A stretch of 47,895 nt of DNA from NCBI GenBank assembly GCA_030605765.1, contig JAUWHP010000009.1:1-47895 (forward strand), in the 5' to 3' direction. A program made the translations under genes and the position numbers. Below, piece after piece: positions 3,060 to 31,745 of the stretch (its first letter is position 1; every line of letters begins with the position of its first letter). The stretch is from Dehalococcoidia bacterium. GTDB taxonomy: Bacteria; Chloroflexota; Dehalococcoidia; GIF9; AB-539-J10. Below the pieces are notes generated by a model. The model made no database searches and was not told where the DNA came from. It saw only the letters and a program-made list of their open reading frames with translations.

Positions 3060-5246
3060 ATGCCTCGGGCAAGACAGAAGACCGTATCCAGACCAAAGCG
3101 GGTTAGGGCAAAAAACTCACTGGTAGGTAAACGCTTTCCCCTTTTTGTTGCCTTAGCCATCATTGTAATAGGGCTACTATATTACTTTGGGCCTCGCCTG
3201 ATTTCCCTGGCTACTGTAGCATGGGAAGACATCCTTACTTTGTTTGGCCTTGGCTTAATTATAGTAGCTGTTGCTCTGGGCGTGATAATCTGGGTGATAT
3301 GTGGAAGGCACCTCTCCGCCTCAGTAAGGCGGTGGAACTGGTTTGTGGGAGGAGCTATTCTGGCTTTAACCGCATGGGGAGTGTTCCCCCTTTTCTGCCC
3401 TGGCCAAGATATTCTAAGCCGAATTACATTAGGAGGCCGGATTGGCCAAAGTATAAGGGAAAACGTAATAGGGGTTGTCGGCACTATGAATGTTGTGGGC
3501 GGCCTCCGGCTGGCTGGGCTTGTCCTTTTAGGTATCATTTTCATAGCCCCTCGTAGATCCTGGGGCCTAGTGAAGAGAGTTGTTAGAAATGGTCAGCGGT
3601 TCTGTCTCAAAGTTCTTCCACCCCATCCCAGAGTTGCACCGCTTAAAGGCCTCTTGCCTCAACTTCCTCTGCCTGAAGCTACTCCATCTGGGGAACGCAC
3701 TGGCGTTACCGGGATGACAGCAAAAACCATGGCACCCCCCTTTTCTGTTATTGCAGACCGAACCCCTGAACGTAGTGAAGGGGCAGCGTGGCAACCTCGA
3801 CGCGAGCCAATTCTTACTCCCGGTGGCTGGAAGCTTCCTCCTATTGATATTCTGGATAAACCAAAAGAGGTAGAACTGAACAGAGATGACATTAATAAAC
3901 GGGCTCGGCTGGTTGAAGAAGCTTTAACCAGCTATGGTGTAGAAGCTAAGGTTGTGCAAATAAATGTAGGCCCCACTGTAACACAATTTGGCGTTGAGCC
4001 TGGCTGGGGCAGGAAATATAGGAAAATCATAGATAGAGGGCAAGAACGGCTGGAAGAAGTATCTAAGACCAGAATCAGAGTGGACCGGATTACTTCTTTG
4101 GCTAATGACTTGGCTTTGGCTTTAGCTGCTCCTAGTATTAGAATTGAAGCTCCCGTGCCAGGTAAATCTATAGTTGGCATTGAGGTTCCCAACACAACGT
4201 TTGGTTCAGTTTCCCTGCGCAGCGTGATAGAGTCTGCTGCCTTTCAGAAGATCAGAGCAAGGTCGGATCTGGCTATTGCGTTGGGCAAGGGTGCTGGTGG
4301 CGAAGCGGTCTCAGCGGACTTAGGCAAGATGCCTCATTTGCTTATTGCTGGAGCTACTGGTAGCGGCAAGACTGTTTGCCTCGATTCTATCATTTGTTGC
4401 TTGCTTTTACATAATACTCCTGATGACGTCCGATTCATTATGGTTGACCCCAAGAGAGTAGAGCTCGTGGTTTTTAACGGGTTACCTCATTTAGCTGCTC
4501 CTGTGGTTGTGGATAGTGATAAAGCCGTAAAGGCGCTGCGATGGCTTAATTATGAAATGGATAATCGCTATCACCAGCTTGCCCAAGCTGGAGCCCGCAA
4601 CATTGAGAATTACAACAAAGACCGCTCCCCTGGTGATAAGCTGCCATACTTGGTGCTGATCATTGATGAGTTGGCTGACCTGATGATGACAGCCTTTGAC
4701 GAAGCAGAGCATACCCTTTGTCGATTAGCTCAGTTAGCGCGAGCTACAGGTATTCATCTCATTGTGGCTACTCAACGACCTTCAGTAGATGTGGTTACTG
4801 GTCTCATTAAAGCTAATTTCCCTACTCGTGTTAGCTTCGCAGTCACCTCTCAGGTAGATTCACGTACTATCCTGGATTCAGTTGGTGCCGAGAAGCTGTT
4901 GGGAAGAGGTGACATGCTTTATATGCCCAGTGAAGCCAGTAAGCCTAAACGTCTCCAGGGATGCCTTATTTCCGATACTGAAATCGAGAGGCAGGTGTAT
5001 TTCTGGGGCAACCAGCGTGATGTGAAGGTGAATTATGTTGACTTTGATGAGGTAGCTGAGTCTGTCAGTTTAAGTCAGAGGATAGCTTCAGCTTCAGACC
5101 CTCTCTTGGAGGAGGCAAAACGTTTAGCACAGGAGCATAAGCATATATCTACCTCTTTCTTGCAGCGGCGCCTTCGTGTTGGCTACCCCCGCGCCGCTCG
5201 TCTTATGGAAACCTTGGAACAGGAAGGCTTGGTGGGAACTGATTAA
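3060..5246 (+). CDS. ftsK: DNA translocase FtsK/SpoIIIE
   Basis: This is the hexameric ATPase that pumps chromosomal DNA at the division septum. The start is placed at ATG 3060 because GGAGGT (3047-3052) sits 7 bp upstream; an in-frame TTG at 3042 would overlap rnj. The 728 residues comprise a basic N-terminus, about four membrane segments in the first ~170 residues, a short Pro-rich linker, and the motor domain. The motor has Walker A AGATGSGKT near residue 430 and Walker B YLVLIIDELADLM near 528, followed by ATQRPSVDVVTGLIKANFPTR. The last ~65 residues form a gamma winged-helix domain (STSFLQRRLRVGYPRAARLME), the part that reads orienting DNA sequences. It converges with apgM, with 19 bp between the stops. 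Confidence 0.95.
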   Translation: MPRARQKTVSRPKRVRAKNSLVGKRFPLFVALAIIVIGLLYYFGPRLISLATVAWEDILTLFGLGLIIVAVALGVIIWVICGRHLSASVRRWNWFVGGAILALTAWGVFPLFCPGQDILSRITLGGRIGQSIRENVIGVVGTMNVVGGLRLAGLVLLGIIFIAPRRSWGLVKRVVRNGQRFCLKVLPPHPRVAPLKGLLPQLPLPEATPSGERTGVTGMTAKTMAPPFSVIADRTPERSEGAAWQPRREPILTPGGWKLPPIDILDKPKEVELNRDDINKRARLVEEALTSYGVEAKVVQINVGPTVTQFGVEPGWGRKYRKIIDRGQERLEEVSKTRIRVDRITSLANDLALALAAPSIRIEAPVPGKSIVGIEVPNTTFGSVSLRSVIESAAFQKIRARSDLAIALGKGAGGEAVSADLGKMPHLLIAGATGSGKTVCLDSIICCLLLHNTPDDVRFIMVDPKRVELVVFNGLPHLAAPVVVDSDKAVKALRWLNYEMDNRYHQLAQAGARNIENYNKDRSPGDKLPYLVLIIDELADLMMTAFDEAEHTLCRLAQLARATGIHLIVATQRPSVDVVTGLIKANFPTRVSFAVTSQVDSRTILDSVGAEKLLGRGDMLYMPSEASKPKRLQGCLISDTEIERQVYFWGNQRDVKVNYVDFDEVAESVSLSQRIASASDPLLEEAKRLAQEHKHISTSFLQRRLRVGYPRAARLMETLEQEGLVGTD

Positions 5247-17388: not shown

Positions 17389-20061
17389 CTAAAGTTCCAA
17401 GGTTATCTTGCTTTCCTCTGAGGAATAGTTTTGTATTGTGAAACCAAGCTTTCTAGCCAATCCTATCATCTTCGTGTTGTCATTTGATACGATCCCGTAG
17501 ATACTTTTTGGTCCTTTCTCCTGTGCTATACCCAGTAGCACATCGGACAGTTTTAGCCCCAAGCCATTATTCTGAAAATCGTCAGCAACTAAAATAGCGA
17601 ACTCGCCTTTTTCCCCGCCAGGCTCAATTATTAATCTTCCAACTCCCACATTCCTTTTCTTAACATCCGAACCGTATTCAGCTATAATTGCCATCTCGCG
17701 GTCATAGTCAATGTTACAGAACCTGGTGAGCATACTATGCGTTATGTCTCTAAGCGTATAGAAGAATCTAAATCTAGAGGTATCTTCTGATAAACTCGCC
17801 AGAAGCTCCTTTTGAAGTGGTTCATCCTCAGGCCTTATAGGCCTCAGTAATACGGATCGCCCATCCTTACATACCCATGGTTGTATGTATCTAGTTGGGT
17901 AAGGGGATATTATTAAATGGCCGTATTCCTGCATTCCATTTTGTATCGCCTCTTCATCAAGGACTATCCTTGCGTCCAGAGCGATAATGGCGTTACTGCT
18001 TATTACCAATGGATTAATGTCAATTTCTTTTATCTCTGGGAAATCAATGATTAGATTTGAGACTTTTACCAAGGTCTCGTCCAACAGCCGTAAATTAACT
18101 GGAGGTCTGGTTCTGAATCCTTCGGATAGCATTTTGTAGATTTTGGTTTGCTGTAACACTCCTCTAGCTAATACCTGATTTAGAGGAGGGATCCCTGCCG
18201 CAGTATCTTTGAAGAACTCTGCCCCTGTCCCCCCCACACCAAACATTATTACAGGGCCAAAAGTTGCATCCTTTTTAGCCCCAATAATAAATTCATCATC
18301 ATAATCTGTAATCATCTTCTGAATACCGACCGCTTCGATCCTGGCGTCAGGCTTCCGATGAGTGACATTCTCCATCATCTCGCTGTATGCTCTTTTGGCC
18401 TCTTCAGGTGAGGAAATGTTTAACATTACACCGCCAACATCTGATTTATGAATTATATCGGGAGAGACTATCTTCATTGCTACTGGATATCCAATCTCCG
18501 ATGCTATTGCAATTGCCTCTTCACGCTCTCTGGCAATATGTGGAATTGTAGAGGAAATTCTGTATGCTGTCAGGAACTTTTTTGAATCCTCCTCACCCAA
18601 AAGTGTGTCGCCTCTCTTCAATGCGTTACGGATAAGGATTTTGAGATAGTTTTTAGCAGCTCCTGTCGCTATTGGTAACTCTTCAGGAGTCTCATACAGC
18701 GTCTCCAGATTACGAGCATATTGATACATATATAAGTATGTTTTGATTGCCTGTTCAGGAAATCCATAGGTAGGGATCTTATTGTCATAGAATAGTTGTC
18801 TTGCCTTGGCTACATCTTCCCCACCTATCAAAGCGGTCACAATAGGTTTATTACTTTTCTTAGCATGCTTGATGACAGCCTGCCCTATCTCAATTGAGTT
18901 GCCTCCACCTTGTGGTGTATGCATGACTACGACACCGTTGACCCCTGGGTCTTTAAGGGTAACCTCGATAGTTTGCTCATATCTTTTTGGGTCTGCATCT
19001 TCGAGGATATCAATAGGGTTAGATTTGCTCCAACCGTGCGGCAAGAATCCATTTAGGGCGGAAAGTGTCGCATCACTAAGCTGAGCTAATTTACCACCTC
19101 TGCTTGACAAAGCGTCTGTGGTCAATACCGCTGGGCCACCAGCATTTGTTATCATAGCTAAATTTGGGCCTTTGGGTAATTGAACAGTGTTCAATATGGA
19201 AGCGCAATTGAAAAGGTCTTCAATTTCTTCTACCCTCACGGCACCAGCTCTACGGAAGATAGCATCATAGTATAAGTCCTCTCCCAGTATAGCTCCTGTG
19301 TGGGATTTGGCCATCCTTGCACTTTCCTGGGATTTTCCCGGTTTAAGTATGATCACAGGCTTCGTCCTGGCAAATCCTCTGGTTGCACTTATGAATTTCC
19401 TGACATCACCTATGGATTCTAAGTATATAATTATGCTCCTGGTCTGAGGGTCCCTACCGAGATAGTCTATCAAGTCTCCAAAGGATACATCCATCATAGA
19501 ACCCAATGAAACAAAGCTGCTGAAGCCAATGTTCCTGCTGGCCCCCCAATCAAGGACTGCTGAGCCCAGAGCACCACTTTGCGATAAAAAGGCTACATGC
19601 CCAGGTTTTGGCATCCTCCTAGCGAATGTCGTATTTAAATTAGCGTTAGGGTTAATCACACCCATGCAATTAGGCCCTACTATCCTGATATTATGTTTCT
19701 TGGCTATGTTTGCTATCTTATCTTCGAGCTTCTTCCCCTCTGTTCCTGTTTCCTTAAAGCCGGCTGAAATGATGATCACGGCTTTAACACCAACCTTACC
19801 ACTTTCATCGACTATGTCGGGAACAGTTTTGGCCGGTGTGACAATGACAGCGAGATCAGGAACTTCAGGTGTAGAGCTTGTGTTTGGATAACATTTCAGA
19901 TCGAATACTTTTTCCCTGTTGGGATTCACCGGGTACACTTTGCGCCTATCCTTCGCCAGCAGTAGGTTCTCCAGTATCACCCTTCCCACCGCCCCTTCCC
20001 TGTCTGTAGCCCCTATCAAAGCTACACTGCCAGGATCAAAAAACGACTTCATCCCTTTCAT
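17389..20061 (-). CDS. ADP-forming acetyl/acyl-CoA synthetase (alpha-beta fusion) with C-terminal GNAT domain
   Basis: Converts acyl-CoA, ADP and phosphate to acid, CoA and ATP, or the reverse. Domain order in 890 residues: CoA-binding (SVALIGATDREGAVG), succinyl-CoA-ligase-like with the phospho-His in MAKSHTGAILGED, ATP-grasp with the second His in IIHKSDVGGVML, then GNAT acetyltransferase over the last ~165 residues (LADDFQNNGLGLKLSDVLL region). The GNAT fusion resembles PatZ/Pka protein lysine acetyltransferases, so a regulatory acetylase is an alternative. Both catalytic histidines are present, which favours an active synthetase. ATG 20061 is chosen because GGGAGGTGAGGAG precedes it; an in-frame GTG at 20070 is possible. 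It is divergent from the CODH/ACS operon. Confidence 0.9.
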   Translation of the reverse strand: MKGMKSFFDPGSVALIGATDREGAVGRVILENLLLAKDRRKVYPVNPNREKVFDLKCYPNTSSTPEVPDLAVIVTPAKTVPDIVDESGKVGVKAVIIISAGFKETGTEGKKLEDKIANIAKKHNIRIVGPNCMGVINPNANLNTTFARRMPKPGHVAFLSQSGALGSAVLDWGASRNIGFSSFVSLGSMMDVSFGDLIDYLGRDPQTRSIIIYLESIGDVRKFISATRGFARTKPVIILKPGKSQESARMAKSHTGAILGEDLYYDAIFRRAGAVRVEEIEDLFNCASILNTVQLPKGPNLAMITNAGGPAVLTTDALSSRGGKLAQLSDATLSALNGFLPHGWSKSNPIDILEDADPKRYEQTIEVTLKDPGVNGVVVMHTPQGGGNSIEIGQAVIKHAKKSNKPIVTALIGGEDVAKARQLFYDNKIPTYGFPEQAIKTYLYMYQYARNLETLYETPEELPIATGAAKNYLKILIRNALKRGDTLLGEEDSKKFLTAYRISSTIPHIAREREEAIAIASEIGYPVAMKIVSPDIIHKSDVGGVMLNISSPEEAKRAYSEMMENVTHRKPDARIEAVGIQKMITDYDDEFIIGAKKDATFGPVIMFGVGGTGAEFFKDTAAGIPPLNQVLARGVLQQTKIYKMLSEGFRTRPPVNLRLLDETLVKVSNLIIDFPEIKEIDINPLVISSNAIIALDARIVLDEEAIQNGMQEYGHLIISPYPTRYIQPWVCKDGRSVLLRPIRPEDEPLQKELLASLSEDTSRFRFFYTLRDITHSMLTRFCNIDYDREMAIIAEYGSDVKKRNVGVGRLIIEPGGEKGEFAILVADDFQNNGLGLKLSDVLLGIAQEKGPKSIYGIVSNDNTKMIGLARKLGFTIQNYSSEESKITLEL

Positions 20062-20223
20062 GCTCCTCACCTCCCGCTATTCTTACCGCCCAATAACTAC
20101 CTCCATTAAAGGCTCTACGCAGACATGCTTCGTTTCGCCCATATTATCCATTACAGCGTTCTTATACCAGCTATCAGTAAATGTAGGGAATCCCCTAAAC
20201 ATTGTTAAGGCTTGACACATATA

Positions 20224-20335: not shown

Positions 20336-21004
20336 ATGCCCTTTTCGGGAATACAGATAAAGACCGTATCTTTAACGATCGATGGCAAGGAGATAGCTGC
20401 TCCAGAAGATAAGAATCTTCTTTGGGTAGCTCTTGACCATGGTACCTACATACCTAATCTTTGTGCCATTCGGGAAAACCGCGAGCCTTTTGCCTCGTGC
20501 CGCCTCTGTTTTGTAGAGATAGAAGGCAAGGCCAAACCGGTTACGGCGTGTACTGTGCTGGTGGCAGAAGGAATGGTGGTTAATACCAAAGGGGCCAAAG
20601 CCTTGAGTTTAGCCCGGACCTCCTTTGAATTACTCCTGTCAAGCTTACCTGTAGATTGTGCCCACTGCCCGAAGAGTGGCCGCTGTGAAGTGCAGAAGAT
20701 CGCCAAGTATCTTGGTGTAAAACTCAACACAAAGCGTTTCACAAAGATTATACGTGACCTACCTGTGGATTCTAGCAGCCCAGTATTCATTTATAACCCG
20801 AATAAGTGTGTGCTTTGCGGCAGGTGCGTTTGGGTATGCCAGGAGAAACTCGGCCTGGGGGTTATTGATTTTGGCTATCGTGGCTTTAGGCGGGTGGTCA
20901 CCACTTTCGGAAACGTACCTATCGCCGAATCCGGTTGCCCAAGCTGTGGTGAGTGTGTTAAAGTTTGCCCTGTTGGCGCTTTAGTGTTCAAGGAAGCGAG
21001 TTGA
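20336..21004 (+). CDS. NuoG/HoxU-like iron-sulfur electron-transfer protein, first gene of the CODH/ACS operon
   Basis: This 222-residue protein has only the N-terminal iron-sulfur part of NuoG, without the molybdopterin domain. Residues C43, C55, C58 and C72 form the CX11CX2CX13C [2Fe-2S] motif. C108, C111 and C117 (DCAHCPKSGRCE) match three of the four ligands of the next [4Fe-4S] cluster; the His normally four residues before the first Cys is Leu104. Two ferredoxin motifs follow: C158-C161-C164-C168 and C201-C204-C207-C211. With the NuoE- and NuoF-like proteins later in the operon it could make a three-part NAD(P)H:ferredoxin or CODH-linked oxidoreductase (inference). No clear ribosome-binding site precedes ATG 20336. 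Confidence 0.85.
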   Translation: MPFSGIQIKTVSLTIDGKEIAAPEDKNLLWVALDHGTYIPNLCAIRENREPFASCRLCFVEIEGKAKPVTACTVLVAEGMVVNTKGAKALSLARTSFELLLSSLPVDCAHCPKSGRCEVQKIAKYLGVKLNTKRFTKIIRDLPVDSSSPVFIYNPNKCVLCGRCVWVCQEKLGLGVIDFGYRGFRRVVTTFGNVPIAESGCPSCGECVKVCPVGALVFKEAS

Positions 21005-21065
21005 CACGAAAGATATTCTTGCAATCAAATAGTGGGTTTCGTAAATCAAAAGCCTGGTGGGGAAG

Positions 21066-21950
21066 ATGATTATCATCGGTGAGAATATACACGTTATAGC
21101 AGAGGCAGTAAATCAGGCCATAAAAGTGCGTGACTCCAACCCAATCCAGGATTTGGCCAGAGGTCAAGTTCAAGCTGGGGCTGATTATCTCGATTTGAAT
21201 CTTGGGCCATTAACTAAGAATCCTCAAGAGACTATACAATGGGCAATAAGCACAGTTCAAGACGTCACCGACTTGCCTTTGTCCCTTGATACCATGAACC
21301 CTATAGCCATGGAAGCAGGCCTCCTTCTTTGCAACAAAAGATCTTTGATCAACTCTGCTTCCGGGAAGAAAGACTCGAAAGAACAGATGCTCCCCCTGGC
21401 CAAGAAATATGATTGTGATGTGGTAGTTTCGGTTATCAACGACAGTGGCATGCCTCCAGATGTGGAAATGAAGACGGAGAGCATCATGGACACAGTGGCC
21501 TATGCTAACGAGCTTGGAATTCCCAATGAGGACATCTGGGTTGACCCCATAGTTTTGCCTGTAAGCACTGCTGGTGAAGGGCAACGGTTTGCTCAGGCCT
21601 CTCTGGAATTCATCAAAATCATCAGCGAGGTTTTGCCAGGGATTAAATCAACAGTGGGACTGTCAAACATATCAAACGGAGCACCAAAGGAACTTCGCCC
21701 ACTACTCAATCGCACCTACCTGGTAATGCTACAGAGGTACGGGCTCTATTCTACAATCGCTGACCCTCTAGATAAGGAACTTATGAGTTTGATTAGAGGG
21801 GAGATGCCAGACGTGGTCAACCTTATCTATAAAGTTATGGATGGGGGGGAGATAGACCTTTCATCTCTCTCTCAAAAGGAAATTCACTATGTGAAGACAG
21901 CCAGGGTCCTTAGCGGCGAAGTTCTGTACTCCGATGCCTGGCTTGAGTAA
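21066..21950 (+). CDS. acsE: Methyltetrahydrofolate:corrinoid iron-sulfur protein methyltransferase
   Basis: Moves the methyl group from 5-methyltetrahydrofolate to the corrinoid of CdhD/CdhE, joining the folate branch to CODH/ACS. It is a TIM-barrel pterin-binding protein of 294 residues. Numbering from ATG 21066 puts D75, N96 and D160 at the same numbers as the folate-site residues of the Moorella enzyme, and N201 matches its Asn199. This supports ATG 21066 over the GTG at 21057. Signature stretches are DYLDLNLGP, LPLSLDTMNP, LINSAS, WVDPIVLP and VGLSNISNG. It sits 11 bp before cdhD. Presence of acsE implies tetrahydrofolate rather than tetrahydromethanopterin as methyl carrier. Confidence 0.93.
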   Translation: MIIIGENIHVIAEAVNQAIKVRDSNPIQDLARGQVQAGADYLDLNLGPLTKNPQETIQWAISTVQDVTDLPLSLDTMNPIAMEAGLLLCNKRSLINSASGKKDSKEQMLPLAKKYDCDVVVSVINDSGMPPDVEMKTESIMDTVAYANELGIPNEDIWVDPIVLPVSTAGEGQRFAQASLEFIKIISEVLPGIKSTVGLSNISNGAPKELRPLLNRTYLVMLQRYGLYSTIADPLDKELMSLIRGEMPDVVNLIYKVMDGGEIDLSSLSQKEIHYVKTARVLSGEVLYSDAWLE

Positions 21951-21961
21951 GGAGATGGAAA

Positions 21962-22894
21962 ATGGAATATAAAGCGCCAATCGAGTCCAATACCGGGATA
22001 GTAAATGTAGTGACTCTGGGCAAACCAGGAGGGGAAACCGTAAGAATTGGAGGGGAAAATACCTTGCCCTTCCATTTTTTTGATGATGGCTCATGGCCGA
22101 ATCCATCGGTATTTGCTCTACAGATCCTTGACCGGGAGCCACCTGAGGACTTACCCGCCTTTCTATATGAGCCTTTCAAGGATGTGCTGCACGATCCTGC
22201 AAAGTGGGCTAAGAAAGTTGAGGAATTTGATTATGTAGACGCGATACAACTTTATCTCCTAAGCACCGACCCTGCAGATCGGGGTTCAGCTCCTGAAAAG
22301 GCGGCAGAGGTAACAATAAAAGTGGCCGAGGCAACAAGCCTTCCTCTGATTATTTACGGCTCTGGAGACCCTGACAAAGATGCTAAGGTTCTTCCTGCAG
22401 TTTGTGAAGCAGTTGATGGTATGAATTACCTCATAGGGCCAGTGCAAAAGGAAAACTATGAGGTGGTGGGAAAGGCAATTCTAGCTCACGGGCTTTTCGC
22501 CAGCGCACAAACCCCTATGGATATCAATCTACTCAAGGAGCTCAATGTAAAATTGGGCCACTTCTTCCCTTTAGAGAGGATCGTTATTGACCCTTTAAGC
22601 CCAGCATTGGGTTACGGCATAGAATATACTTACAGTCTAATGGAGAGGATAAAGCAGCTTGGAGAAATCATCAAAGATAAGATGACGCAGATGCCCATGA
22701 TTGCTGATTTCGCCACCGAAATCTGGAGATCAAAACAGGCCAGGGAAAATGAAGAACAAGGGATACTCTGGGAAGCAATGACTTCACTCTCCCTCCTCAC
22801 CGCTGGGGCAAATATCCTGACTCATAGGCATCTCAAGTCTATGAAATTAGTAAAGGAAATGTACGAAAGCGAGGTTAAACAATGGCAGAAGTAG
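21962..22894 (+). CDS. cdhD: Acetyl-CoA decarbonylase/synthase delta subunit (corrinoid protein small subunit)
   Basis: Small subunit of the corrinoid iron-sulfur protein; a TIM-barrel partner that cradles the cobamide carried by CdhE. The 310 residues begin with a strand-rich segment (VTLGKPGGETVRIGGENTLPF) and HFFDDGSWPNPSVFALQILD, characteristic of CdhD/AcsD. Later conserved parts are PLIIYGSGDPDKDAKVL and IVIDPLSPALGYGIEYTYSLM. AAGGAGATGG precedes the ATG at good spacing. The end overlaps cdhA by 13 bp, so the two are probably translationally coupled. Confidence 0.93.
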   Translation: MEYKAPIESNTGIVNVVTLGKPGGETVRIGGENTLPFHFFDDGSWPNPSVFALQILDREPPEDLPAFLYEPFKDVLHDPAKWAKKVEEFDYVDAIQLYLLSTDPADRGSAPEKAAEVTIKVAEATSLPLIIYGSGDPDKDAKVLPAVCEAVDGMNYLIGPVQKENYEVVGKAILAHGLFASAQTPMDINLLKELNVKLGHFFPLERIVIDPLSPALGYGIEYTYSLMERIKQLGEIIKDKMTQMPMIADFATEIWRSKQARENEEQGILWEAMTSLSLLTAGANILTHRHLKSMKLVKEMYESEVKQWQK

Positions 22895-25191
22895 TAAAAG
22901 AGCTAACTAGGAAGGAAAAGGAAATTCGAGAGCTCATAAGGGCCGAGATTCCATGGGAGCCTGTCGGCCCTACGCCAATGCCAGAAATCGCAGACCTTAG
23001 ATCATGGGACATGAGGCTGCTTAAGACTTATAAGCCCTGGTATGCCCCATTCTGTGACCTCTGTTGCCTTTGTACCTATGGGAAATGTGACCTTAGCCAA
23101 GGAAGGAGAGGGGCTTGTGGCTTAGACATAGCAACTCAGCAGGCGAGGATTATTCTTCTCGCTTGCTTGATGGGGTGCTCCGCGCATGCTGCTCATGGCG
23201 GTCATATACTGGAGCATTTGATTGAGAAGTATGGCGCTGATAAAAAGATTGATATGGGCACATATATCGAGCTCGAGGCTCCAAATATAAGGACGGTTAC
23301 CGGGCTAAAGCCCGAGACCTTAGGCGACCTTAAGACAGTTATAGAGTATGTATATAAGGAGATCACTCATCTTCTCGATTCCACTCACTTTGGACAAGAG
23401 GGAAGCTATCTGGATTACGAATCGAAAGCTTTACATGCCAGCATGCTTGACCATGTGGGAATGGAGGTAGCAGATATAGCTCAGATCGTGGGCTTCAATT
23501 TCCCCACCTCGGTTGCCGATACCCCTCTGGTAGACATGGGGTGGGCCTCAGTGGATGAATCTAAGCCAGTGATCTTGCTGGTGGGGCATAATCCGGCTAC
23601 TTCGACTACTATTATTGATTATCTACGGGAAAATGACCTTTATGATAAGGTTGAGGTAGCTGGCATTTGCTGCACTGCACTTGAAACAACAAGATACTCC
23701 GATAGGGCAAAGATTGTCGGTCCTCTTTCACGACAGCTCTTCTACGTAAGGACAGGCATTGCCGATGTCATCGTGACTGATGAGCAATGCATAAGAACTG
23801 ATATGCCTATAGAGGCAGATAATGTTGACTCACGGGTTATTGCCACTCTGGACAAAGCCATGTATGGGCTTGAGGATGCCACTGACTGGGATACAGAAGA
23901 GATAGTGAAACAGATGGTGGAGGACAAGAAACACTTTGCTATCTTGAATACCAAGAAAGCAGCTGAGGTGGCAGCCAAAGTTGCTTTGAAAATCGCCCCC
24001 CAGAGAAAGAAGAGATGGATAACAGAAGAGGAAGCCATAGAGCTAGCTAAGAAATGTACTAATTGTGGCATATGTGAAAGAGTGTGCCCTAACCTTATCA
24101 ATATCGGCGATGGTATAACTGAGCTTGCCAAGGGTAGTTTTGATCTGATAAAGGAGCAGTTCAATCAATGTATTGGCTGTGGCAAATGTGAGCAGGAATG
24201 TCCTAATAAAGTTCCCATCTTCAAGATAATGCAGGTGGCTGCGAGCAAGGAGACCTGGAAAATAAGGGCCGGGCGCGGCCCGGTTATGGATACTGAGATA
24301 AGGAATGTTGGAGCGCCAATAACTCTAGGAACGATCCCTGGAGTCCTTGCCTTTGTTGGTTGTAGTAACTATCCCGATATAGACGACGTTGCCGATATGG
24401 TATATGAGTTTGCCCGTAGGAAATATATTGTAACTCTTACTGGCTGTGCTGCTATGGCTGCCGGGATGAAGAAATTTGAAAATGGGAAGACTGTATACGA
24501 GCTATTTCCTCCCGAATTTGATGCTGGAGGGGTGCTGAACGTTGGCTCTTGCGTTTCCAATGCCCATATCTCCGGAGCAGCAATAAAAATAGCCAATATC
24601 TTCGCTGCTCTCCCCTTGAGAGCGAACTATGAGGTAATGGCTGACTATGTGTTCAACCGCGTAGGCGCCTGTGGCGTAGCCTGGGGAGCTATGTCCCAGA
24701 AGGCAGCTTCCATTGGTACAGGGTTTAATAGACTAGGTATCCCTGTGCTACTAGGGCCTCATTCCTCTAAATATAGAAGGCTTTATCTTTCAAGAAAGGA
24801 AGAGGATGACTGGACGGTCATGGATGCCAGGAAGAGGGAGATTGTGGATAGTGGGGAACCTTCCCCTGAGCACTTAGCTTACGTATGCGAAACCAAGGAG
24901 AAAGCTATGGTGATGATTCCTAAGCTTTGTATAAGAAAAAACGATACTCCTCAAGGGAGGTCAATAAAGCTCAATCATTACATTTCCCTGTATAAGAAAT
25001 ATATGGGGGGCGGTCTTCCTGAAGACGTCCATCTCTTTATCAGAAGGGATGCTGATATTCCTCTCGTTTATAAGAAAGAAGTAAGGGCATACTTAAAAGA
25101 AATTGACTGGCAGCCTAAGGAACCTGTCGGACTTCCTACCTTAATCGGGACTTATCCCACTAAGGTTCCTCTGGATGCAGTCATTCATTAA
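22882..25191 (+). CDS. cdhA: CO dehydrogenase, archaeal-type alpha subunit
   Basis: Ni-Fe-S enzyme that oxidises CO or reduces CO2 to CO for acetyl-CoA synthesis. At 769 residues it is the long CdhA type, unlike bacterial CooS/AcsA of about 640. It contains PFCDLCCLCTYGKCDLSQG for the D/B clusters. It also has the archaeal-type insert of two ferredoxin motifs (CTNCGICERVCPN and CIGCGKCEQECPN, about residues 393-441). C-cluster regions are MGCSAHAAHGGHILEHL, GICCTALE, VTDEQCIRTD, FVGCSN, LTGCAAMAAGM and NVGSCVSNAH. It overlaps cdhD by 13 bp and is followed by cdhB, the subunit that accompanies this long form in archaea. Confidence 0.95.
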   Translation: MAEVVKELTRKEKEIRELIRAEIPWEPVGPTPMPEIADLRSWDMRLLKTYKPWYAPFCDLCCLCTYGKCDLSQGRRGACGLDIATQQARIILLACLMGCSAHAAHGGHILEHLIEKYGADKKIDMGTYIELEAPNIRTVTGLKPETLGDLKTVIEYVYKEITHLLDSTHFGQEGSYLDYESKALHASMLDHVGMEVADIAQIVGFNFPTSVADTPLVDMGWASVDESKPVILLVGHNPATSTTIIDYLRENDLYDKVEVAGICCTALETTRYSDRAKIVGPLSRQLFYVRTGIADVIVTDEQCIRTDMPIEADNVDSRVIATLDKAMYGLEDATDWDTEEIVKQMVEDKKHFAILNTKKAAEVAAKVALKIAPQRKKRWITEEEAIELAKKCTNCGICERVCPNLINIGDGITELAKGSFDLIKEQFNQCIGCGKCEQECPNKVPIFKIMQVAASKETWKIRAGRGPVMDTEIRNVGAPITLGTIPGVLAFVGCSNYPDIDDVADMVYEFARRKYIVTLTGCAAMAAGMKKFENGKTVYELFPPEFDAGGVLNVGSCVSNAHISGAAIKIANIFAALPLRANYEVMADYVFNRVGACGVAWGAMSQKAASIGTGFNRLGIPVLLGPHSSKYRRLYLSRKEEDDWTVMDARKREIVDSGEPSPEHLAYVCETKEKAMVMIPKLCIRKNDTPQGRSIKLNHYISLYKKYMGGGLPEDVHLFIRRDADIPLVYKKEVRAYLKEIDWQPKEPVGLPTLIGTYPTKVPLDAVIH

Positions 25192-25221: not shown

Positions 25222-25773
25222 ATGGCGGTAGTACCGTTTCACAGAGTAAACGTCCTCACCGGCATAAAGGCAAGCCGGATAATAGAGGATCCAGTGCAAT
25301 GTGCTGACCTAATCTTGAAAGCCAGGAGGCCTCTGCTTGTCCTCGGTGCGAAGCTGATTGAATGGTCAGTTGATGGAAAGCTCGCCCTAGAGTACGCCTT
25401 AGACATAGCTAGGGCTGCTAGAATTCCTGCGTGCGGTACTGCACATGTTAAGGGGAAGATGGTAGAACTCGGGGTTAGTCCAGACAGCGTCTATGATGTG
25501 GTGGAGATAGTAAATGCACTGAAGGACCCTGATTGGCGAGGCGTAAAAAAGGAGGGAAACCATGACCTGGTTATCTTCCTTGGTGTGAGGAGCGACCTGG
25601 AGGAACAATGCCTTTCCGTTCTCAAACATTTCGCCTACAAGCATTTGAGAACCATGACCCTCGACAAGTATTACTTTCCCCATGCGAATTATTCCCTTCC
25701 CAACTTCAAGAAGGATGAGCAATGGGGGGGGTTTTTGGAAGAATTAATGGCGAATTTGCGAAAGGAGAGATAA
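25222..25773 (+). CDS. cdhB: CO dehydrogenase epsilon subunit
   Basis: The 183-residue epsilon subunit binds CdhA in the archaeal alpha2-epsilon2 CODH; its fold resembles a dehydrogenase nucleotide-binding domain and a flavin-related role has been proposed. Conserved parts are the N-terminal strand-helix with ARRPLLVLGAKLIEW, the segment ARIPACGTAHVKG, HDLVIFLGVRSDLEEQCLSVLKHF and the Tyr-rich tail YYFPHANYSLPN. AAAGGAGGGG precedes the ATG. Classical bacterial acetogen CODH/ACS clusters lack this gene, so it marks an archaeal-type complex. Confidence 0.9.
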   Translation: MAVVPFHRVNVLTGIKASRIIEDPVQCADLILKARRPLLVLGAKLIEWSVDGKLALEYALDIARAARIPACGTAHVKGKMVELGVSPDSVYDVVEIVNALKDPDWRGVKKEGNHDLVIFLGVRSDLEEQCLSVLKHFAYKHLRTMTLDKYYFPHANYSLPNFKKDEQWGGFLEELMANLRKER

Positions 25774-25776
25774 CAG

Positions 25777-27000
25777 ATGGAATGGCATTCAGACATCGGG
25801 CCACAATACGAAGGCGAGGTAGTAAGGAAGGAAGATCTGTGGATCGAGTTTGGTGGCCCTAAAGTAGCTCGCAAGTTCGAGCTTTGCAGATTAAAGAGCC
25901 CCGAGCAGATTGAACATGAGAAGGTAGAAATCATCGGCAAGGATATAAACGAGATGGAGGAAGGAGGGAGTTATCCCATAGCTATTATAGTAGATGTTGC
26001 TGGGGAACAACTTGATGAGGACGCGTTGCCAGTCCTTGAGAGAAGAATCCACATGTTCGCCAGTTATATTGAGGATTGGTATCACATGAATCAAAGAGCA
26101 GATACATGGATAAGAGTGAACAAAACTGCCGCCAAAAAAGGCTGGACTACGTTAAAGGAATTTGGAGAAATACTTAATTTTCTCTACACCTCGGAAATGG
26201 ATATTATCGAGAAAATCCAGATTACTCTCATCACCGACCCAGATTTAATAGAGAAGCTTTACCCTGAGGCTAAAGCAGCCTATGCTGCCAGAGATCAAAG
26301 GGTGCTGACTCTCCATGATGAGGATGTAGATACATTTTACGGCTGCGTTCTCTGTCAAAGCTTCGCGCCAACCCATGTCTCCATCATATCTCCGGACAGA
26401 ATTGGCAATTGTGGGGCCATAAATTGGTTCGATGGCAGAGCAGCCGCCAAAATTGACCCCGAGGGACCTATATTTGCTATCCCTAGGGGGGACCTCATAG
26501 ATCCCACAAAGGGCGAATATGCTGGAGCAAATCAGGTGGAACGCGAAAGATCCCTCGGCACCTATGACAGAGTCTATCTTTACAGCGCTTTTGAGCATCC
26601 TCATACCTCTTGCGGCTGTTTTGAGGCCATCGTTTTCTATATTCCCGAGGTAGATGCTTTTGGAATAGTCCATCGAGCATTTAAGGGTAAGACTGTGATT
26701 GGGGAGACTTTCTCCCACATGGCTGGTGAGACCTCCGGGGGAAGACAGGTGGAGGGGAGGTTGGGAACCGGACTGGAGCAGATAAGGTCGCCCAAGTTCA
26801 TCCAGGCAGACGGGGGGCTTCACAGGATGGTCTGGATGCCGAAGGAAATAAAGGAGAGGTATCGGGAAACGATTGAGGCCAAGGGCCTATGGGATAAGAT
26901 AGCCATCGAGGAGGATGTAGCAGATGTGGACCAGCTTCTAAAATGGCTGGATGAGCATCAACATCCGTGGCTAATGGGGCAAGTTGAACTTCCCACATAA
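25777..27000 (+). CDS. cdhC: Acetyl-CoA synthase catalytic (beta) subunit, CdhC type, with a Ser at one A-cluster ligand
   Basis: Joins CO, a methyl group and CoA into acetyl-CoA at a nickel A-cluster. The 407 residues are the short archaeal form, lacking the N-terminal CODH-binding domain of bacterial AcsB. The A-cluster region is GCVLCQSFAPTHV from C190, with C193 and C212 conserved and C279/C281 forming the C-G-C distal-nickel site. The fourth [4Fe-4S] ligand, Cys201 in methanogen CdhC and Cys518 in Moorella AcsB, is Ser202 (TCC, 26380-26382). Serine can ligate iron, so function may remain, but the substitution is unusual. AAAGGAGAG precedes the ATG, and the gene starts 3 bp after the cdhB stop. 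Confidence 0.93.
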   Translation: MEWHSDIGPQYEGEVVRKEDLWIEFGGPKVARKFELCRLKSPEQIEHEKVEIIGKDINEMEEGGSYPIAIIVDVAGEQLDEDALPVLERRIHMFASYIEDWYHMNQRADTWIRVNKTAAKKGWTTLKEFGEILNFLYTSEMDIIEKIQITLITDPDLIEKLYPEAKAAYAARDQRVLTLHDEDVDTFYGCVLCQSFAPTHVSIISPDRIGNCGAINWFDGRAAAKIDPEGPIFAIPRGDLIDPTKGEYAGANQVERERSLGTYDRVYLYSAFEHPHTSCGCFEAIVFYIPEVDAFGIVHRAFKGKTVIGETFSHMAGETSGGRQVEGRLGTGLEQIRSPKFIQADGGLHRMVWMPKEIKERYRETIEAKGLWDKIAIEEDVADVDQLLKWLDEHQHPWLMGQVELPT

Positions 27001-27024: not shown

Positions 27025-28422
27025 ATGCTGGTTTCAGGATCACAGCTTGTAAAGCTGCTCCCTAACAAGAGACCATGCCGTGACTGCGGTTTTCCCACAT
27101 GTTTTGCCTTTGCCATGAAGCTCGCTTCAGGAGGAGCAACTGTAGATAAATGCCCACACCTCTCTCCTGAAACAAGAGCCAAGATAGAGGAGCTTCTGAT
27201 TCCGCCCATGAAATTCGTTACCATAGGCACTGGCGGGAATAAGCTCGAAATTGGCAATGAAGAAGTGATATACCGTCACGAAAAGACATTTGTCCATGAG
27301 CCGGGGATTGCTTTGCTGGTCTCTGATAAGGAAAGCGATGAGGAGATTCAGGGGGCGATAAGCAGAATAAGGAAACTGCACTATGCCTGGGTAGGGACGA
27401 TGCTACGTGCAAACCTTCTAGCCCCTTACTTCGAATCGGGCGATAAGCCCAGGTTTATAGCGGTAGTGAAGAGACTTCGCGAATCAATTGACTTGCCTTT
27501 GGTTATAATCTCAGAGGATGCGGAGGCTTTATTTGCCGCCAGAGATATATGTGCCGATAGGCAGCCCTTAATCTACCCCATAACCCAAGGAAATATAGAT
27601 ACAGCAATCCCCAAAATCAAAGAAAAACCTACCCCGGTGGGTGTTCGAGCTGAAAGCGTAGAAGGACTGGTGTCTTTAACTACTAAACTAAAGGCTTCGG
27701 GTATCGACGACTTAGTTCTAGACCCTGGTTCTAAGACTATGCTGGAAGCTATAAGAGACCAGACCCTTATTCGCCGAGCAACTCTAAAGCAAACGTTCAG
27801 GCCACTCGGTTACCCCACTATGGCCTTCCCTTGCTTCATGGTTAGAGATAATCCGCTGAAGGAAATGCTTATCGCTTCCTTATATGTAAACAAATATGCT
27901 GGCATTATTGTCCTTTCCAACCTTGATCCGAATCACATGCTTCCGCTTCTAGTGCAACGACTTAATATCTATACCGACCCTCGGTTTCCCATGGCAGTAG
28001 AGGAGAAATACTATGAGATAGGAGAACCCAATGAGGAATCCCCGGTTCTAATGACCTCAAACTGGGCTTTGACTTATTTCGTGGTAAGCTCAGCAATTGA
28101 GTCCACTAAGATTCCGACATTCCTCTTGGTACAGGATGCAGAGGGTCTTGGTATCCTGACCGGCTGGGCAGCAGGCAAGATCAGTGGCAGTACCATAGCT
28201 AAGCTGGTTAAGAATTGCGGAATTGAAGAGAGAGTGAAGCATAGACAGTTAGTCCTCCCAGGGAGAATAGCAAGAATTTCAGGTGCGACAATGGAAGCTC
28301 TGGATTGGAAGTGGGAGGTAACAGTTGGTGTTAGAGAAGCAACTGCAATAGGAGCCTTCCTTCCTAAATATGCTAAGGAACTCAAGGGGAAGATAGCCGC
28401 AGGGAAGGCAGTCCCAGAGTGA
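27025..28422 (+). CDS. cdhE: Acetyl-CoA decarbonylase/synthase gamma subunit (corrinoid protein large subunit)
   Basis: Large subunit of the corrinoid iron-sulfur protein that carries the methyl group to the A-cluster. The 465 residues start with a [4Fe-4S] domain (CRDCGFPTCFAFAMKL then VDKCP, cysteines spaced CX2CX4CX16C), followed by a TIM barrel and a C-terminal cobamide-binding domain (about residue 320 on, with LLVQDAEGLGILTGWAAGKISG). GGAGGTACACT precedes the ATG, and the stop nearly coincides with the start of the NuoE-like gene. All family hallmarks look intact. Confidence 0.94.
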   Translation: MLVSGSQLVKLLPNKRPCRDCGFPTCFAFAMKLASGGATVDKCPHLSPETRAKIEELLIPPMKFVTIGTGGNKLEIGNEEVIYRHEKTFVHEPGIALLVSDKESDEEIQGAISRIRKLHYAWVGTMLRANLLAPYFESGDKPRFIAVVKRLRESIDLPLVIISEDAEALFAARDICADRQPLIYPITQGNIDTAIPKIKEKPTPVGVRAESVEGLVSLTTKLKASGIDDLVLDPGSKTMLEAIRDQTLIRRATLKQTFRPLGYPTMAFPCFMVRDNPLKEMLIASLYVNKYAGIIVLSNLDPNHMLPLLVQRLNIYTDPRFPMAVEEKYYEIGEPNEESPVLMTSNWALTYFVVSSAIESTKIPTFLLVQDAEGLGILTGWAAGKISGSTIAKLVKNCGIEERVKHRQLVLPGRIARISGATMEALDWKWEVTVGVREATAIGAFLPKYAKELKGKIAAGKAVPE

Positions 28423-28436
28423 GGAAAGAGGAGTCT

Positions 28437-28958
28437 GTGACCGAGCAGTTAAAGGGGACATTAACCCCTGATAGAAAAGAAAGGAAGAACTTAATCTCTC
28501 TACTGCAGGAAATCCAGGAAAGCCTGGGATACCTTCCCCGAGAGGCGATGACAGAGTTGGCTAAGTTTTTGGAAATGCCAGCAGTCCGGGTTTATTCAGT
28601 GGCCACTTTCTATAATCAATTCCGGTTCACATCTATAGGAAAATATCCCATCCAGGTTTGCCTGGGAACTGCTTGCCATTTAAGGGGAGGTAAGCTTATC
28701 TTACAGGAATTTGAGAGACAGCTAGGAATTAAGGTAGGAGAGACTAGTCAAGATGGCAATTTCAGCTTGGAAAGGGTAGCTTGCATGGGGTGCTGTATGC
28801 TCGCCCCGGTAGTGAGGATAGGTGACAGAGCTCCAGCAGTAAAAATAGGCGATAAAATCTACCCCAAAATGACACCCTTTAAAGTAGATGAGATCTCAGT
28901 GCCCTACAAGCAGGAAATTGAAAAAGAGCGATCGGAGGAAGAGCAAATTCCGCAGTAG
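28437..28958 (+). CDS. NuoE-like [2Fe-2S] subunit of an NAD(P)H-linked oxidoreductase
   Basis: Thioredoxin-fold ferredoxin like NuoE, HydC or HndA. The four cluster cysteines are in CLGTACHLRGG and ACMGCCMLAP. The N-terminal helical domain has LISLLQEIQESLGYLPREAM and RVYSVATFYNQFRF, both typical. GTG 28437 is preferred because GAGGAAAGAGGAG precedes it, giving 173 residues; an in-frame GTG at 28419 overlaps the cdhE stop. Directly behind cdhE and before the NuoF-like gene, it should form a heterodimer with the latter. The C-terminal 20 residues are highly charged and outside the fold. Confidence 0.9.
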   Translation: MTEQLKGTLTPDRKERKNLISLLQEIQESLGYLPREAMTELAKFLEMPAVRVYSVATFYNQFRFTSIGKYPIQVCLGTACHLRGGKLILQEFERQLGIKVGETSQDGNFSLERVACMGCCMLAPVVRIGDRAPAVKIGDKIYPKMTPFKVDEISVPYKQEIEKERSEEEQIPQ

Positions 28959-29054: not shown

Positions 29055-30989
29055 ATGACTTTCAAGGAGCTCACAAACAGAGCGAAATCCGAGTGGGAAG
29101 CTTTGCAAAGCAGCACTCATATTCTCGTTGGCACAGCTACTTGTGGCAGGGCAGCCGGTGCTATGGAGACTGTTAAAGCATTTGAAGAAGAACTAAAGCG
29201 CCGGAATATCGAAGTTAAGGTTATCGAGGTCGGCTGCATGGGATTATGCTATGCCGAGCCCTTGGTCGCCATCTCTAGGCCTGAGTCCTTGCGTGTGGTA
29301 TACCATCACATGACTCAGGAACTTGTCCCTCGACTTGTAGAAGGCTACATCATCAGCGATGACCCTTGCCTTGAGCTTGCTTTAGGCACGTTTGAGGTGG
29401 GGGAGGAGGGAGAAGCTCCTTATATACCAGAACTCCCCCGATTTGAAAAGGAGCTTCGCCTTGTGTTGCGCCGTTGCGGTTATATTGACCCCGAGAACAT
29501 AAACCACTACCTCGCCAATGATGGCTACAGGGGACTGGAGAAAGCCTTAAAGATGCGGCCTGAGGAGATAATCGAGGAAATTAAGAAATCGGGACTTCGA
29601 GGGCGAGGTGGTGCGGGGTTTCCTACTGGCCTAAAATGGGAAATTTGTCATAGCTACTCTGCTACCCCAAAATATATAGTATGCAACGCTGATGAGGGTG
29701 ACCCTGGCGCCTTTATGGACCGAATTGTTTTGGAAAGCGACCCGCAGCAGGTTATAGAAGGGATGATTATCGGTGGTTATGCCATAGGAGCCGACGAAGG
29801 CTATATTTATATTCGTGCTGAATATCCTCTGGCTGTTGAGCGGGTAAAGGTCGCCTTACAGCAGGCAGAGAAACTGGGTTTTTTGGGAGATAATATACTC
29901 AGCAGTGGCTTTGGCTTCCGTATCAATCTAGCTACCGGAGCCGGTGCGTTCGTCTCTGGCGAAGAAACGGGATTGATGGCTGCCATTGAAGGCGAGACAA
30001 GCGAACCCAGGCCAAGGCCACCGTATCCGGCAGAGTCTGGGTTGTGGGGCAAACCTACTGCTTTGAATAATGTAAAGACCTTTGCCAATATCCATTTGAT
30101 AGTTGAGAGAGGGGCCGATTGGTTCGCTTCAATCGGCACTGAAAAAAGCAAAGGTACGGCGCTGTTTAGCTTGGCAGGTAAGATCAAAGATTCCGGACTC
30201 ACCGAAGTACCTATGGGGACAACGATACGTGAGATAGTTTATGACATTGGAGATGGAATTCTCAATGATAGGGAATTTAAAGCAGTGCAGATTGGAGGCC
30301 CCTCGGGCGGTATGATTCCAGCGAATCTGCAGGACACGCCTATAGATTTTGATTCACTCACCTCAATCGGTTCAATGATGGGTTCAGGAGGATTTATTGT
30401 TATGGACGAGGATGACTGCGCCGTTGATGCAACGTGTTTCTTCGTCGACTTCATCACGAGAGAGTCATGCGGCAAGTGCACCCCGTGTAGAGTGGGCAAT
30501 CTGCAGATGCTCAAAGTTCTAGAGAACATCACAAATGGCAAAGGTAAGATGGAAGATATTGACTTCCTCCTCGAGCTGGCGGAGGATATCAAGGGTGGAT
30601 CCCTTTGTGCCTTGGGAGGAACAGCACCTAATCCTGTTCTCACCTCCATCCGCTACTTTCAAGATGAATACGCAGCCCACGTCTTAGAGAAGCGTTGCCC
30701 TGCGAAGGTGTGCACTAACCTTACAGCTTACTGCATTCTGCAGGATAAATGCGACAGGTCGTGTGAGCACTGTGTCCTAACTTGCCCTACTGAAGCCATC
30801 GGGGGTGGAGTGGGAAAGATCAAGCATATTGACCAGGAAAAATGCGTAAATTGCGGCACCTGTAGGGATGTCTGCCCTCCAAAGTATAATGCGGTAGTAA
30901 AACTGTCACCGATTAGCTCGCTTCCCCTAGAGGATTTTGCCGCCAAAGAAAAGGCAGTGGCTAAAGCCATAGAAGAAAGCGAGACCTAA
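29055..30989 (+). CDS. NuoF-like NAD(P)H- and FMN-binding subunit with extra iron-sulfur domains
   Basis: The 644 residues make a three-domain HydB/NuoF-type protein. Residues 1-110 form a thioredoxin-like [2Fe-2S] domain (TATCGRAAGA, GCMGLCYAEP). The core flavin/NADH domain has GLRGRGGAGFPTGLKWE and ADEGDPGAFMDR, with its [4Fe-4S] site ESCGKCTPCRVG plus GGSLCALGG. The C-terminal ferredoxin domain has two motifs. The first, CDRSCEHCVLTCP, is CX3CX2CX3C, one residue longer than normal; the second, CVNCGTCRDVCPP, is regular. It probably passes electrons between NAD(P)H and ferredoxin or CODH with the NuoE- and NuoG-like partners (inference). The stop TAA runs into the next ATG. Confidence 0.92.
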   Translation: MTFKELTNRAKSEWEALQSSTHILVGTATCGRAAGAMETVKAFEEELKRRNIEVKVIEVGCMGLCYAEPLVAISRPESLRVVYHHMTQELVPRLVEGYIISDDPCLELALGTFEVGEEGEAPYIPELPRFEKELRLVLRRCGYIDPENINHYLANDGYRGLEKALKMRPEEIIEEIKKSGLRGRGGAGFPTGLKWEICHSYSATPKYIVCNADEGDPGAFMDRIVLESDPQQVIEGMIIGGYAIGADEGYIYIRAEYPLAVERVKVALQQAEKLGFLGDNILSSGFGFRINLATGAGAFVSGEETGLMAAIEGETSEPRPRPPYPAESGLWGKPTALNNVKTFANIHLIVERGADWFASIGTEKSKGTALFSLAGKIKDSGLTEVPMGTTIREIVYDIGDGILNDREFKAVQIGGPSGGMIPANLQDTPIDFDSLTSIGSMMGSGGFIVMDEDDCAVDATCFFVDFITRESCGKCTPCRVGNLQMLKVLENITNGKGKMEDIDFLLELAEDIKGGSLCALGGTAPNPVLTSIRYFQDEYAAHVLEKRCPAKVCTNLTAYCILQDKCDRSCEHCVLTCPTEAIGGGVGKIKHIDQEKCVNCGTCRDVCPPKYNAVVKLSPISSLPLEDFAAKEKAVAKAIEESET

Positions 30990-31745
30990 ATGGCTCGAAA
31001 AATTGTTTCTACTGGTAGGGGAGGGGCAGGCAAGTCAACCTTCGTGGCTTTAATTGTTAGATACTTAAAGCCCCCCACACTTCTTGTCGACCTTGACCCT
31101 GACCTTAGCCTGGCCGATATGCTTGGGGCAGATTTCCGTAAGGAAAAGAAAAAGACGGTTTCGGAAGCACTTTATGATGTCATTGAAACAAGAAAAAGAG
31201 GGGCAAAGGTTTCAACGCCCACACATGAGCTGATGGAATCTTTGCTATGGAGCGATTGCTTGTATGAGGATATAGGTTTCGACCTTATCACTCTGGGGAC
31301 AAAGCTGACCGAAGGCTGTTATTGTCCCCCAGATGAGCTGCTTAGGAGAACTATCCCTAAACTAGCTAGGAATTATACCAATGTAGTAATAGATTCACCA
31401 GCCGGGGTGGAGCACTTGAATCGAAATATAGTCTCTGATATAAACGACCTGTTTGTCATCTGTGACCCCTCTGAGAAATCTTTAAGACACATAGGTAGAA
31501 TCAAAGAAATCATGAAGGCAGTAGGGATTAGGTACAATCGCTTTTACCTGGTGGCAAATTACGAATTTGATGAAGGAACAGAGGGCTATCTGCGAAACAG
31601 TGGTGAAATCTATCTCGGCAAGATAGATTATGACGCTAACCTGGAGCAATACAACTTGCAAGGGAAACCTCTTCTAGAACTCCCTGAGGATTCACCTGCT
31701 TGCTTATCTGTAAAGAGGATTTTGACAAAAGGAGGTTACGGATAG
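30990..31745 (+). CDS. CooC-like P-loop ATPase with Arg in place of the signature lysine (copy 1)
   Basis: MinD/ParA-class ATPase of 251 residues, probably for nickel insertion into CODH. The P-loop is STGRGGAGKST; the deviant Walker A signature lysine of CooC/MinD proteins (GKGG) is Arg10 here, while the catalytic Lys15 remains. The metal-binding CXC of CooC is present at C110/C112 (EGCYCPP). Walker A' LLVDLDPDLS and switch IDSPAGVEHLNR are recognisable. It abuts the NuoF-like stop, so it is in the operon. The closest relative in the window is the gene at 32068, with matching motifs throughout, implying tandem duplication. Confidence 0.85.
   Translation: MARKIVSTGRGGAGKSTFVALIVRYLKPPTLLVDLDPDLSLADMLGADFRKEKKKTVSEALYDVIETRKRGAKVSTPTHELMESLLWSDCLYEDIGFDLITLGTKLTEGCYCPPDELLRRTIPKLARNYTNVVIDSPAGVEHLNRNIVSDINDLFVICDPSEKSLRHIGRIKEIMKAVGIRYNRFYLVANYEFDEGTEGYLRNSGEIYLGKIDYDANLEQYNLQGKPLLELPEDSPACLSVKRILTKGGYG

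Follow-up and report, generated by a model that had tools for sequence, protein, structure and literature searches.

Models of the A-cluster of acetyl-CoA synthase (ACS) differ, among other things, over the role of its [4Fe-4S] cubane, which may transfer electrons or merely tune nickel. The mechanism of this cluster is still debated (PMC11295191). Described forms of the enzyme are the short CdhC of Methanosarcina (ACDS beta; PDB 9c0s/9c0t, PMC11474084) and the long AcsB of Moorella and C. hydrogenoformans (1oao, 1ru3, 7zkj), in which Cys201 (methanogen CdhC) or Cys518 (Moorella AcsB) occupies one of four cubane ligand positions. A natural Ser-ligated [4Fe-4S] cluster is known from lipoyl synthase (PMC5352715, PMC13232139). 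Here we describe a CdhC with serine at this ligand position, encoded in a 47,895-nucleotide stretch of DNA from a Dehalococcoidia bacterium, which was analyzed as a whole and is called the window below.

Serine at a cubane ligand position of CdhC

The window carries an intact cluster that runs from a HoxU-like subunit through AcsE, CdhD, CdhA, CdhB, CdhC, CdhE, NuoE and NuoF to a CooC-like ATPase:

20336..21004, + strand: HoxU/NuoG-N-like 2Fe-2S/4Fe-4S subunit, first gene of the cluster (NCBIfam/Pfam)
21057..21950, + strand: acsE, methyl-THF:corrinoid/Fe-S protein methyltransferase (NCBIfam below curated cut-off; Pterin_bind above cut-off)
21962..22894, + strand: cdhD, small corrinoid/Fe-S protein subunit (Pfam PF03599)
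22882..25191, + strand: cdhA, archaeal-type CO dehydrogenase alpha subunit, 769 aa (Fe-S ligand motifs kept relative to 8riu_A)
25222..25773, + strand: cdhB, epsilon subunit (Pfam PF02552)
25777..27000, + strand: cdhC, ACS/ACDS beta subunit, 407 aa (Pfam, PDB, AF2, Foldseek)
27025..28422, + strand: cdhE/acsC, large corrinoid/Fe-S protein subunit (Pfam PF03599 and FeS)
28419..28958, + strand: NuoE-like subunit
29055..30989, + strand: NuoF-like subunit with C-terminal ferredoxin domain
30990..31745, + strand: CooC-like (MinD/ParA-type) P-loop ATPase (Pfam AAA_31/CbiA)

Judging from its position, the CooC-like ATPase is possibly a nickel-insertion factor. The window CdhC is the short archaeal-type form without the N-terminal domain of AcsB. 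It matches the Pfam families ACS_CODH_B_C (PF19436, E=1.2e-77) and CdhC (PF03598, E=1.1e-53), and its top PDB match in HMMER is M. thermophila CdhC (9c0s_E, E=1.5e-131). The ACS fold is recovered both by the PF19436 match and by an AF2 model (pLDDT 94.5; local pLDDT about 89-95), which Foldseek matches to truncated ACS (3git, TM 0.93, rmsd 1.8 A) and in which a confidently modelled strand begins at Ser202. The residues of the A-cluster are encoded as follows:

26344..26346, + strand: Cys190, cubane ligand, invariant in the alignment
26353..26355, + strand: Cys193, bridge between cubane and proximal Ni, invariant in the alignment
26380..26382, + strand: codon tcc, Ser202, at the site of the [4Fe-4S] ligand
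26410..26412, + strand: Cys212, cubane ligand, invariant in the alignment
26611..26619, + strand: Cys279-Gly280-Cys281, dinickel site, invariant in the alignment

In HMMER alignments with 9c0s_E and with C. hydrogenoformans AcsB, Ser202 falls on the conserved cysteine after CQSFAPT(N/H)V in a gap-free stretch, and C190, C193, C212, C279 and C281 are all in register, the last two corresponding to Cys278 and Cys280 of M. thermophila. These alignments bear out the first-pass annotation, which had placed the three cubane cysteines and a TCC-encoded serine at these residues and coordinates and had numbered them at a constant offset from methanogen CdhC and Moorella AcsB. We take the role of Cys193 as the cubane/proximal Ni bridge to be the one seen in established ACS structures. 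The bridging cysteine and the Cys-Gly-Cys dinickel motif are thus present, and the four-cysteine cubane set is one short, with Ser202 in place of a cysteine; the whole protein has only six cysteines (37, 190, 193, 212, 279 and 281). Through homology, we assign the window CdhC as an ACS variant and not as a canonical member. Since the four-cysteine signature is not universal, annotation rules that demand all four cysteines would miss such enzymes.

Distribution and inheritance of Ser202

ACS loci were collected from relatives and GTDB contigs (110, later about 195), and 108 sequences were compared after removal of identical ones. Residue 202 is serine in 30 and cysteine in 78 of these, and nothing else; the cysteine sequences take in AcsB and archaeal CdhC. 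All Ser-type sequences come from MAGs, which belong to uncultured Chloroflexota and, in a few cases, to Syntrophia. Whether the serine is lineage-wide had been raised as a check in the first-pass annotation, and the answer is clear: each of the lineage's 30 distinct full-length sequences (68-100% identity) has it, and so does a 99%-identical sister genome, which removes the worry about an error in a single genome. In the group, the serine is encoded by TCC, TCT and TCG, codons one step away from TGY; AGY codons do not occur. Although tcc and tgc are only one base apart, an artefact of sequencing, assembly or alignment has next to no probability and is ruled out, since dozens of genomes assembled independently share Ser202, use three serine codons for it and align without gaps.

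Carriers of the Ser type are the family of the window (f1), one genome of family f53, and bins labelled Syntrophaceae, in whose class the Ser type was present in 4 of 23 sampled genomes (the class of G412). The group received SH-aLRT support of 100 in one tree and 100/100 in another, with the exception of one Cys member (L056), which is placed inside the Ser group or as its first branch in the CdhC tree; a CdhC tree that keeps all Ser sequences in one clade is not rejected by the AU test (p=0.58). Pairwise dN/dS within the group has a median of 0.08, and the two closest genomes give 0.05. The Ser202 swap is a real, inherited trait kept by purifying selection. About 17 positions besides 202 are fixed differently in this lineage. 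A phylum-wide pattern scan for Ser outside the lineage, covering TCN but not AGY codons, returned only members of the Ser group and one further genome (G740), in which no ACS homology was found. Two Ser-type cdhC copies, L117 (G385:C78) and L057, which are possibly the same gene fetched twice, contain one in-frame TAG that could be an assembly error, a pseudogene or recoding.

Operon context and exchange of cdhC types

The gene order AcsE-CdhD-A-B-C-E-NuoE-F is kept across the Ser group, and the ACS is encoded with CO dehydrogenase and corrinoid/Fe-S protein genes both in the window and in its relatives. For the methyl branch, each of the 18 genomes tested had a match to FTHFS (17 of them above cut-off), and 16 had MTHFR above cut-off; no MTHFR above the Pfam cut-off was found in the window genome, a MAG of 87.6% completeness. 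The window genome and its near-complete relatives G010 and G031 have one ACS match each, and no second, canonical ACS alongside the Ser type was found in any of the three. Beside the operon, on the opposite strand (17389-20070), lies a gene for an ADP-forming acyl/acetyl-CoA synthetase-like protein with a C-terminal GNAT acetyltransferase domain, possibly the acetate/ATP outlet of the pathway.

Two genomes of genus g6 offer a natural comparison of the two cdhC types. G027 (Cys) and G007 (Ser) are 94% identical in AcsE, 89% in CdhD, 87% in CdhA and 88% in CdhB, yet only 68% in CdhC, and their DNA identity, mostly 80-100% upstream, falls to 61-75% once the first codons of cdhC are reached. The Cys-type cdhC of G027 (L181, G027:C34, 6737-7954) is embedded in an operon whose other proteins are 87-94% identical to those of the Ser-type relative L045, and the tree built from the other seven proteins of the operon nests G027 within the Ser group (100/99). 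The near-identical flanks, the divergent CdhC and the drop in identity at the start of the gene together indicate that one cdhC type replaced the other in place. By this comparison, the replacement in G027/G007 is xenologous and lies exactly at the gene boundary, and it could have gone in either direction.

L056, from a bin labelled Deltaproteobacteria, differs from this pattern. Its CdhC keeps most marker residues of the Ser group and has Cys at 202, with positions 101, 224, 235, 342 and 367 likewise off the Ser-group state. In the operon tree without CdhC, both Cys members fall inside the Ser group and L056 stands beside Syntrophaceae Ser members (100/100), a placement that favors reversion to cysteine on a Ser-type backbone. 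Judging from L056 and four loci in Syntrophia-assigned bins (L044, L046, L053 and L033), the whole CODH/ACS-NuoEF operon appears to have been exchanged horizontally between Dehalococcoidia and genomes labelled Desulfobacterota or Deltaproteobacteria.

That the Cys and Ser types are found at one position in the operon, next to the same partner subunits, implies that the Ser enzyme takes the usual place of an ACS. At the level of sequence, this is the strongest argument that the Ser enzyme works as an ACS.

The fourth iron of the cubane

We consider it likely that Ser202 is the fourth cubane ligand of a working ACS, in a trait that had one or a few origins, was kept by selection and is tolerated by the enzyme. 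Ligation by Ser202 is the simplest and most likely reading of the alignments, and both the position and the conservation of the residue agree with it. The serine hydroxyl or alkoxide would bind the fourth iron of the cubane, Cys190, Cys193 (which also bridges to the proximal Ni) and Cys212 would hold the other three, and Cys279 and Cys281 would form the dinickel site as usual. A change from TGY to TCY would have occurred once or very few times in the cdhC lineage and then been kept by purifying selection, and the Ser type would be shared with Syntrophia through operon transfer. From general Fe-S chemistry, an oxygen ligand should lower the potential of the cubane and weaken the hold on that iron. 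Serine may be tolerated or used here because acetyl-CoA synthesis does not require the cubane to undergo low-potential cycling. We infer catalytic activity, Ser-iron ligation and the reason for tolerance from these comparisons.

No compensating cysteine beyond the canonical five is common to the 30 members of the Ser group. Cys37 is present in two of the 30 and Cys118 in 22 but not in the window, so that neither serves as a replacement, and no Cys or His has been gained at any of the positions that are specifically fixed in the group. This absence of a newly fixed ligand would also fit a site-differentiated cubane held by three cysteines, in which Ser202 is unbound and the fourth iron carries water or hydroxide, as in aconitase, or is lost to leave a [3Fe-4S] cluster; with Cys193 as bridge and the dinickel site both intact, such an enzyme could still be active as an ACS. 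Serine is a weaker ligand than cysteine, and lipoyl synthase loses its Ser-bound iron during turnover. Nevertheless, we regard a three-cysteine cubane as unlikely, since Ser202 never drifts to Ala, Gly or Thr across a deep and diverse cluster, while the adjacent residue 201 varies freely (V, I, C or L), a constancy which suggests that the hydroxyl matters. As 191 of the 407 positions (about 47%) are invariant in the Ser group, invariance of Ser202 taken alone is modest evidence for ligation.

It is also conceivable, with considerably lower probability, that the Ser enzyme is no longer an ACS and either catalyzes a different reaction or serves the CODH complex only as a structural component. 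Loss of an otherwise invariant ligand and the other differently fixed positions would agree with such a change of function, but the dinickel ligands, the bridging cysteine, the operon and the methyl-branch genes are all kept, no other ACS was found in the same genome, and Cys-type and Ser-type cdhC share a slot in nearly identical operons. A shift of register, in which Cys201 took over the ligand role from position 202, is very improbable. Such a shift could be imagined in members with H-C-S, as Cys is found at 201 in six of the 30, and several neighboring Cys-type enzymes, including that of G027, have an adjacent cysteine pair (H-C-C). Residue 201 is, however, V, I or L in the window protein and 23 other members, so Cys201 does not explain the trait as a whole and is a stepping stone at most; in the window protein itself, Val201 rules it out as a substitute. 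A second thiol at 201 could have compensated when the canonical cysteine was lost, before disappearing in its turn.

With ligation by Ser202 preferred and an open iron as its closest alternative, it is quite likely that a whole lineage runs the carbonyl branch of the Wood-Ljungdahl pathway with a Ser-ligated or open-iron cubane of shifted potential, that Ser and Cys cassettes are exchanged, and that the fourth thiolate is dispensable for ACS. The Ser enzymes and their natural Cys counterparts (G027 versus G007; L056 versus L033) form a ready comparison set and a natural test of the role of the cubane. If the Ser enzyme works with its cubane at a much lower potential, this would weaken models in which the cubane has to act as a redox partner.

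CdhC-like paralogs with in-frame TGA codons

A family of divergent CdhC-like paralogs came up among the loci collected. Those of two class-mates, G105 (two genes) and G190 (one gene), are about 475 aa long and 35-37% identical to the window CdhC, and have an in-frame TGA at one or both distal-nickel cysteine codons with no other stop in the aligned region. The TGA codons lie at about 2745-2753 in L183/L194 (G105:C247), at about 6320 in L184/L190 (G105:C98) and at about 4050-4065 on the reverse strand in L193 (G190:C111), giving the motifs PTTN-U-G-U-FEA, PTTN-U-G-C-FEA and STTN-U-G-U-FEA; homologs in G133 and G147 have C-G-C at this motif. These TGA codons probably encode selenocysteine ligands at the distal nickel, as predicted from the reading frames. 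A full-length SelB above the curated cut-off is present in G190, and none above that cut-off was found in G105 (62% complete). In two selenoproteome reviews, the sole ACS-related entry is the CdhE/HgcA family, and these paralogs are unlisted. Together with L129, L130, L132 and L134, the TGA genes make up one family with the motif FYGCTICKxxAPNHxC...PYCG and without the CQSF motif (the alcove Phe is changed), and the family occurs in genomes of the same class, in some of which its members accompany AcsB or CdhC.

Comparison with known systems

Lipoyl synthase shows that Ser ligation of a [4Fe-4S] cluster is not in itself a novelty. A serine-ligated cubane, if real, had been called new for this enzyme family, and the claim stands for ACS as far as the literature was searched: no such ACS report was found, with the A-cluster cubane and bridging-cysteine papers PMIDs 21626638 and 21103478 lying outside the scope of the search. 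The auxiliary cluster of E. coli LipA (Ser308) has a comparable natural set of three cysteines plus serine, but LipA is an unrelated radical-SAM enzyme that expels the Ser-bound iron when sulfur is inserted. Bacterial AcsB shares the C-terminal ACS fold and the A-cluster motif with the window CdhC and differs in its long three-domain form and in having Cys518 where the window has serine. Methanosarcina CdhC is closer, as another short ACS without the N-terminal domain, with about 50% identity, the same cysteine pattern for the bridge and dinickel site and the same partners (CdhA, B, D and E); its cubane ligand is Cys201 and not a serine. Closest of all are the Cys-type CdhC proteins of Dehalococcoidia (families f2 and f46, relatives of Dehalococcoides, and G027 of the window's own family), which are 58-69% identical and encoded in the same operon, but which have cysteine at 202, in several cases directly after another cysteine.
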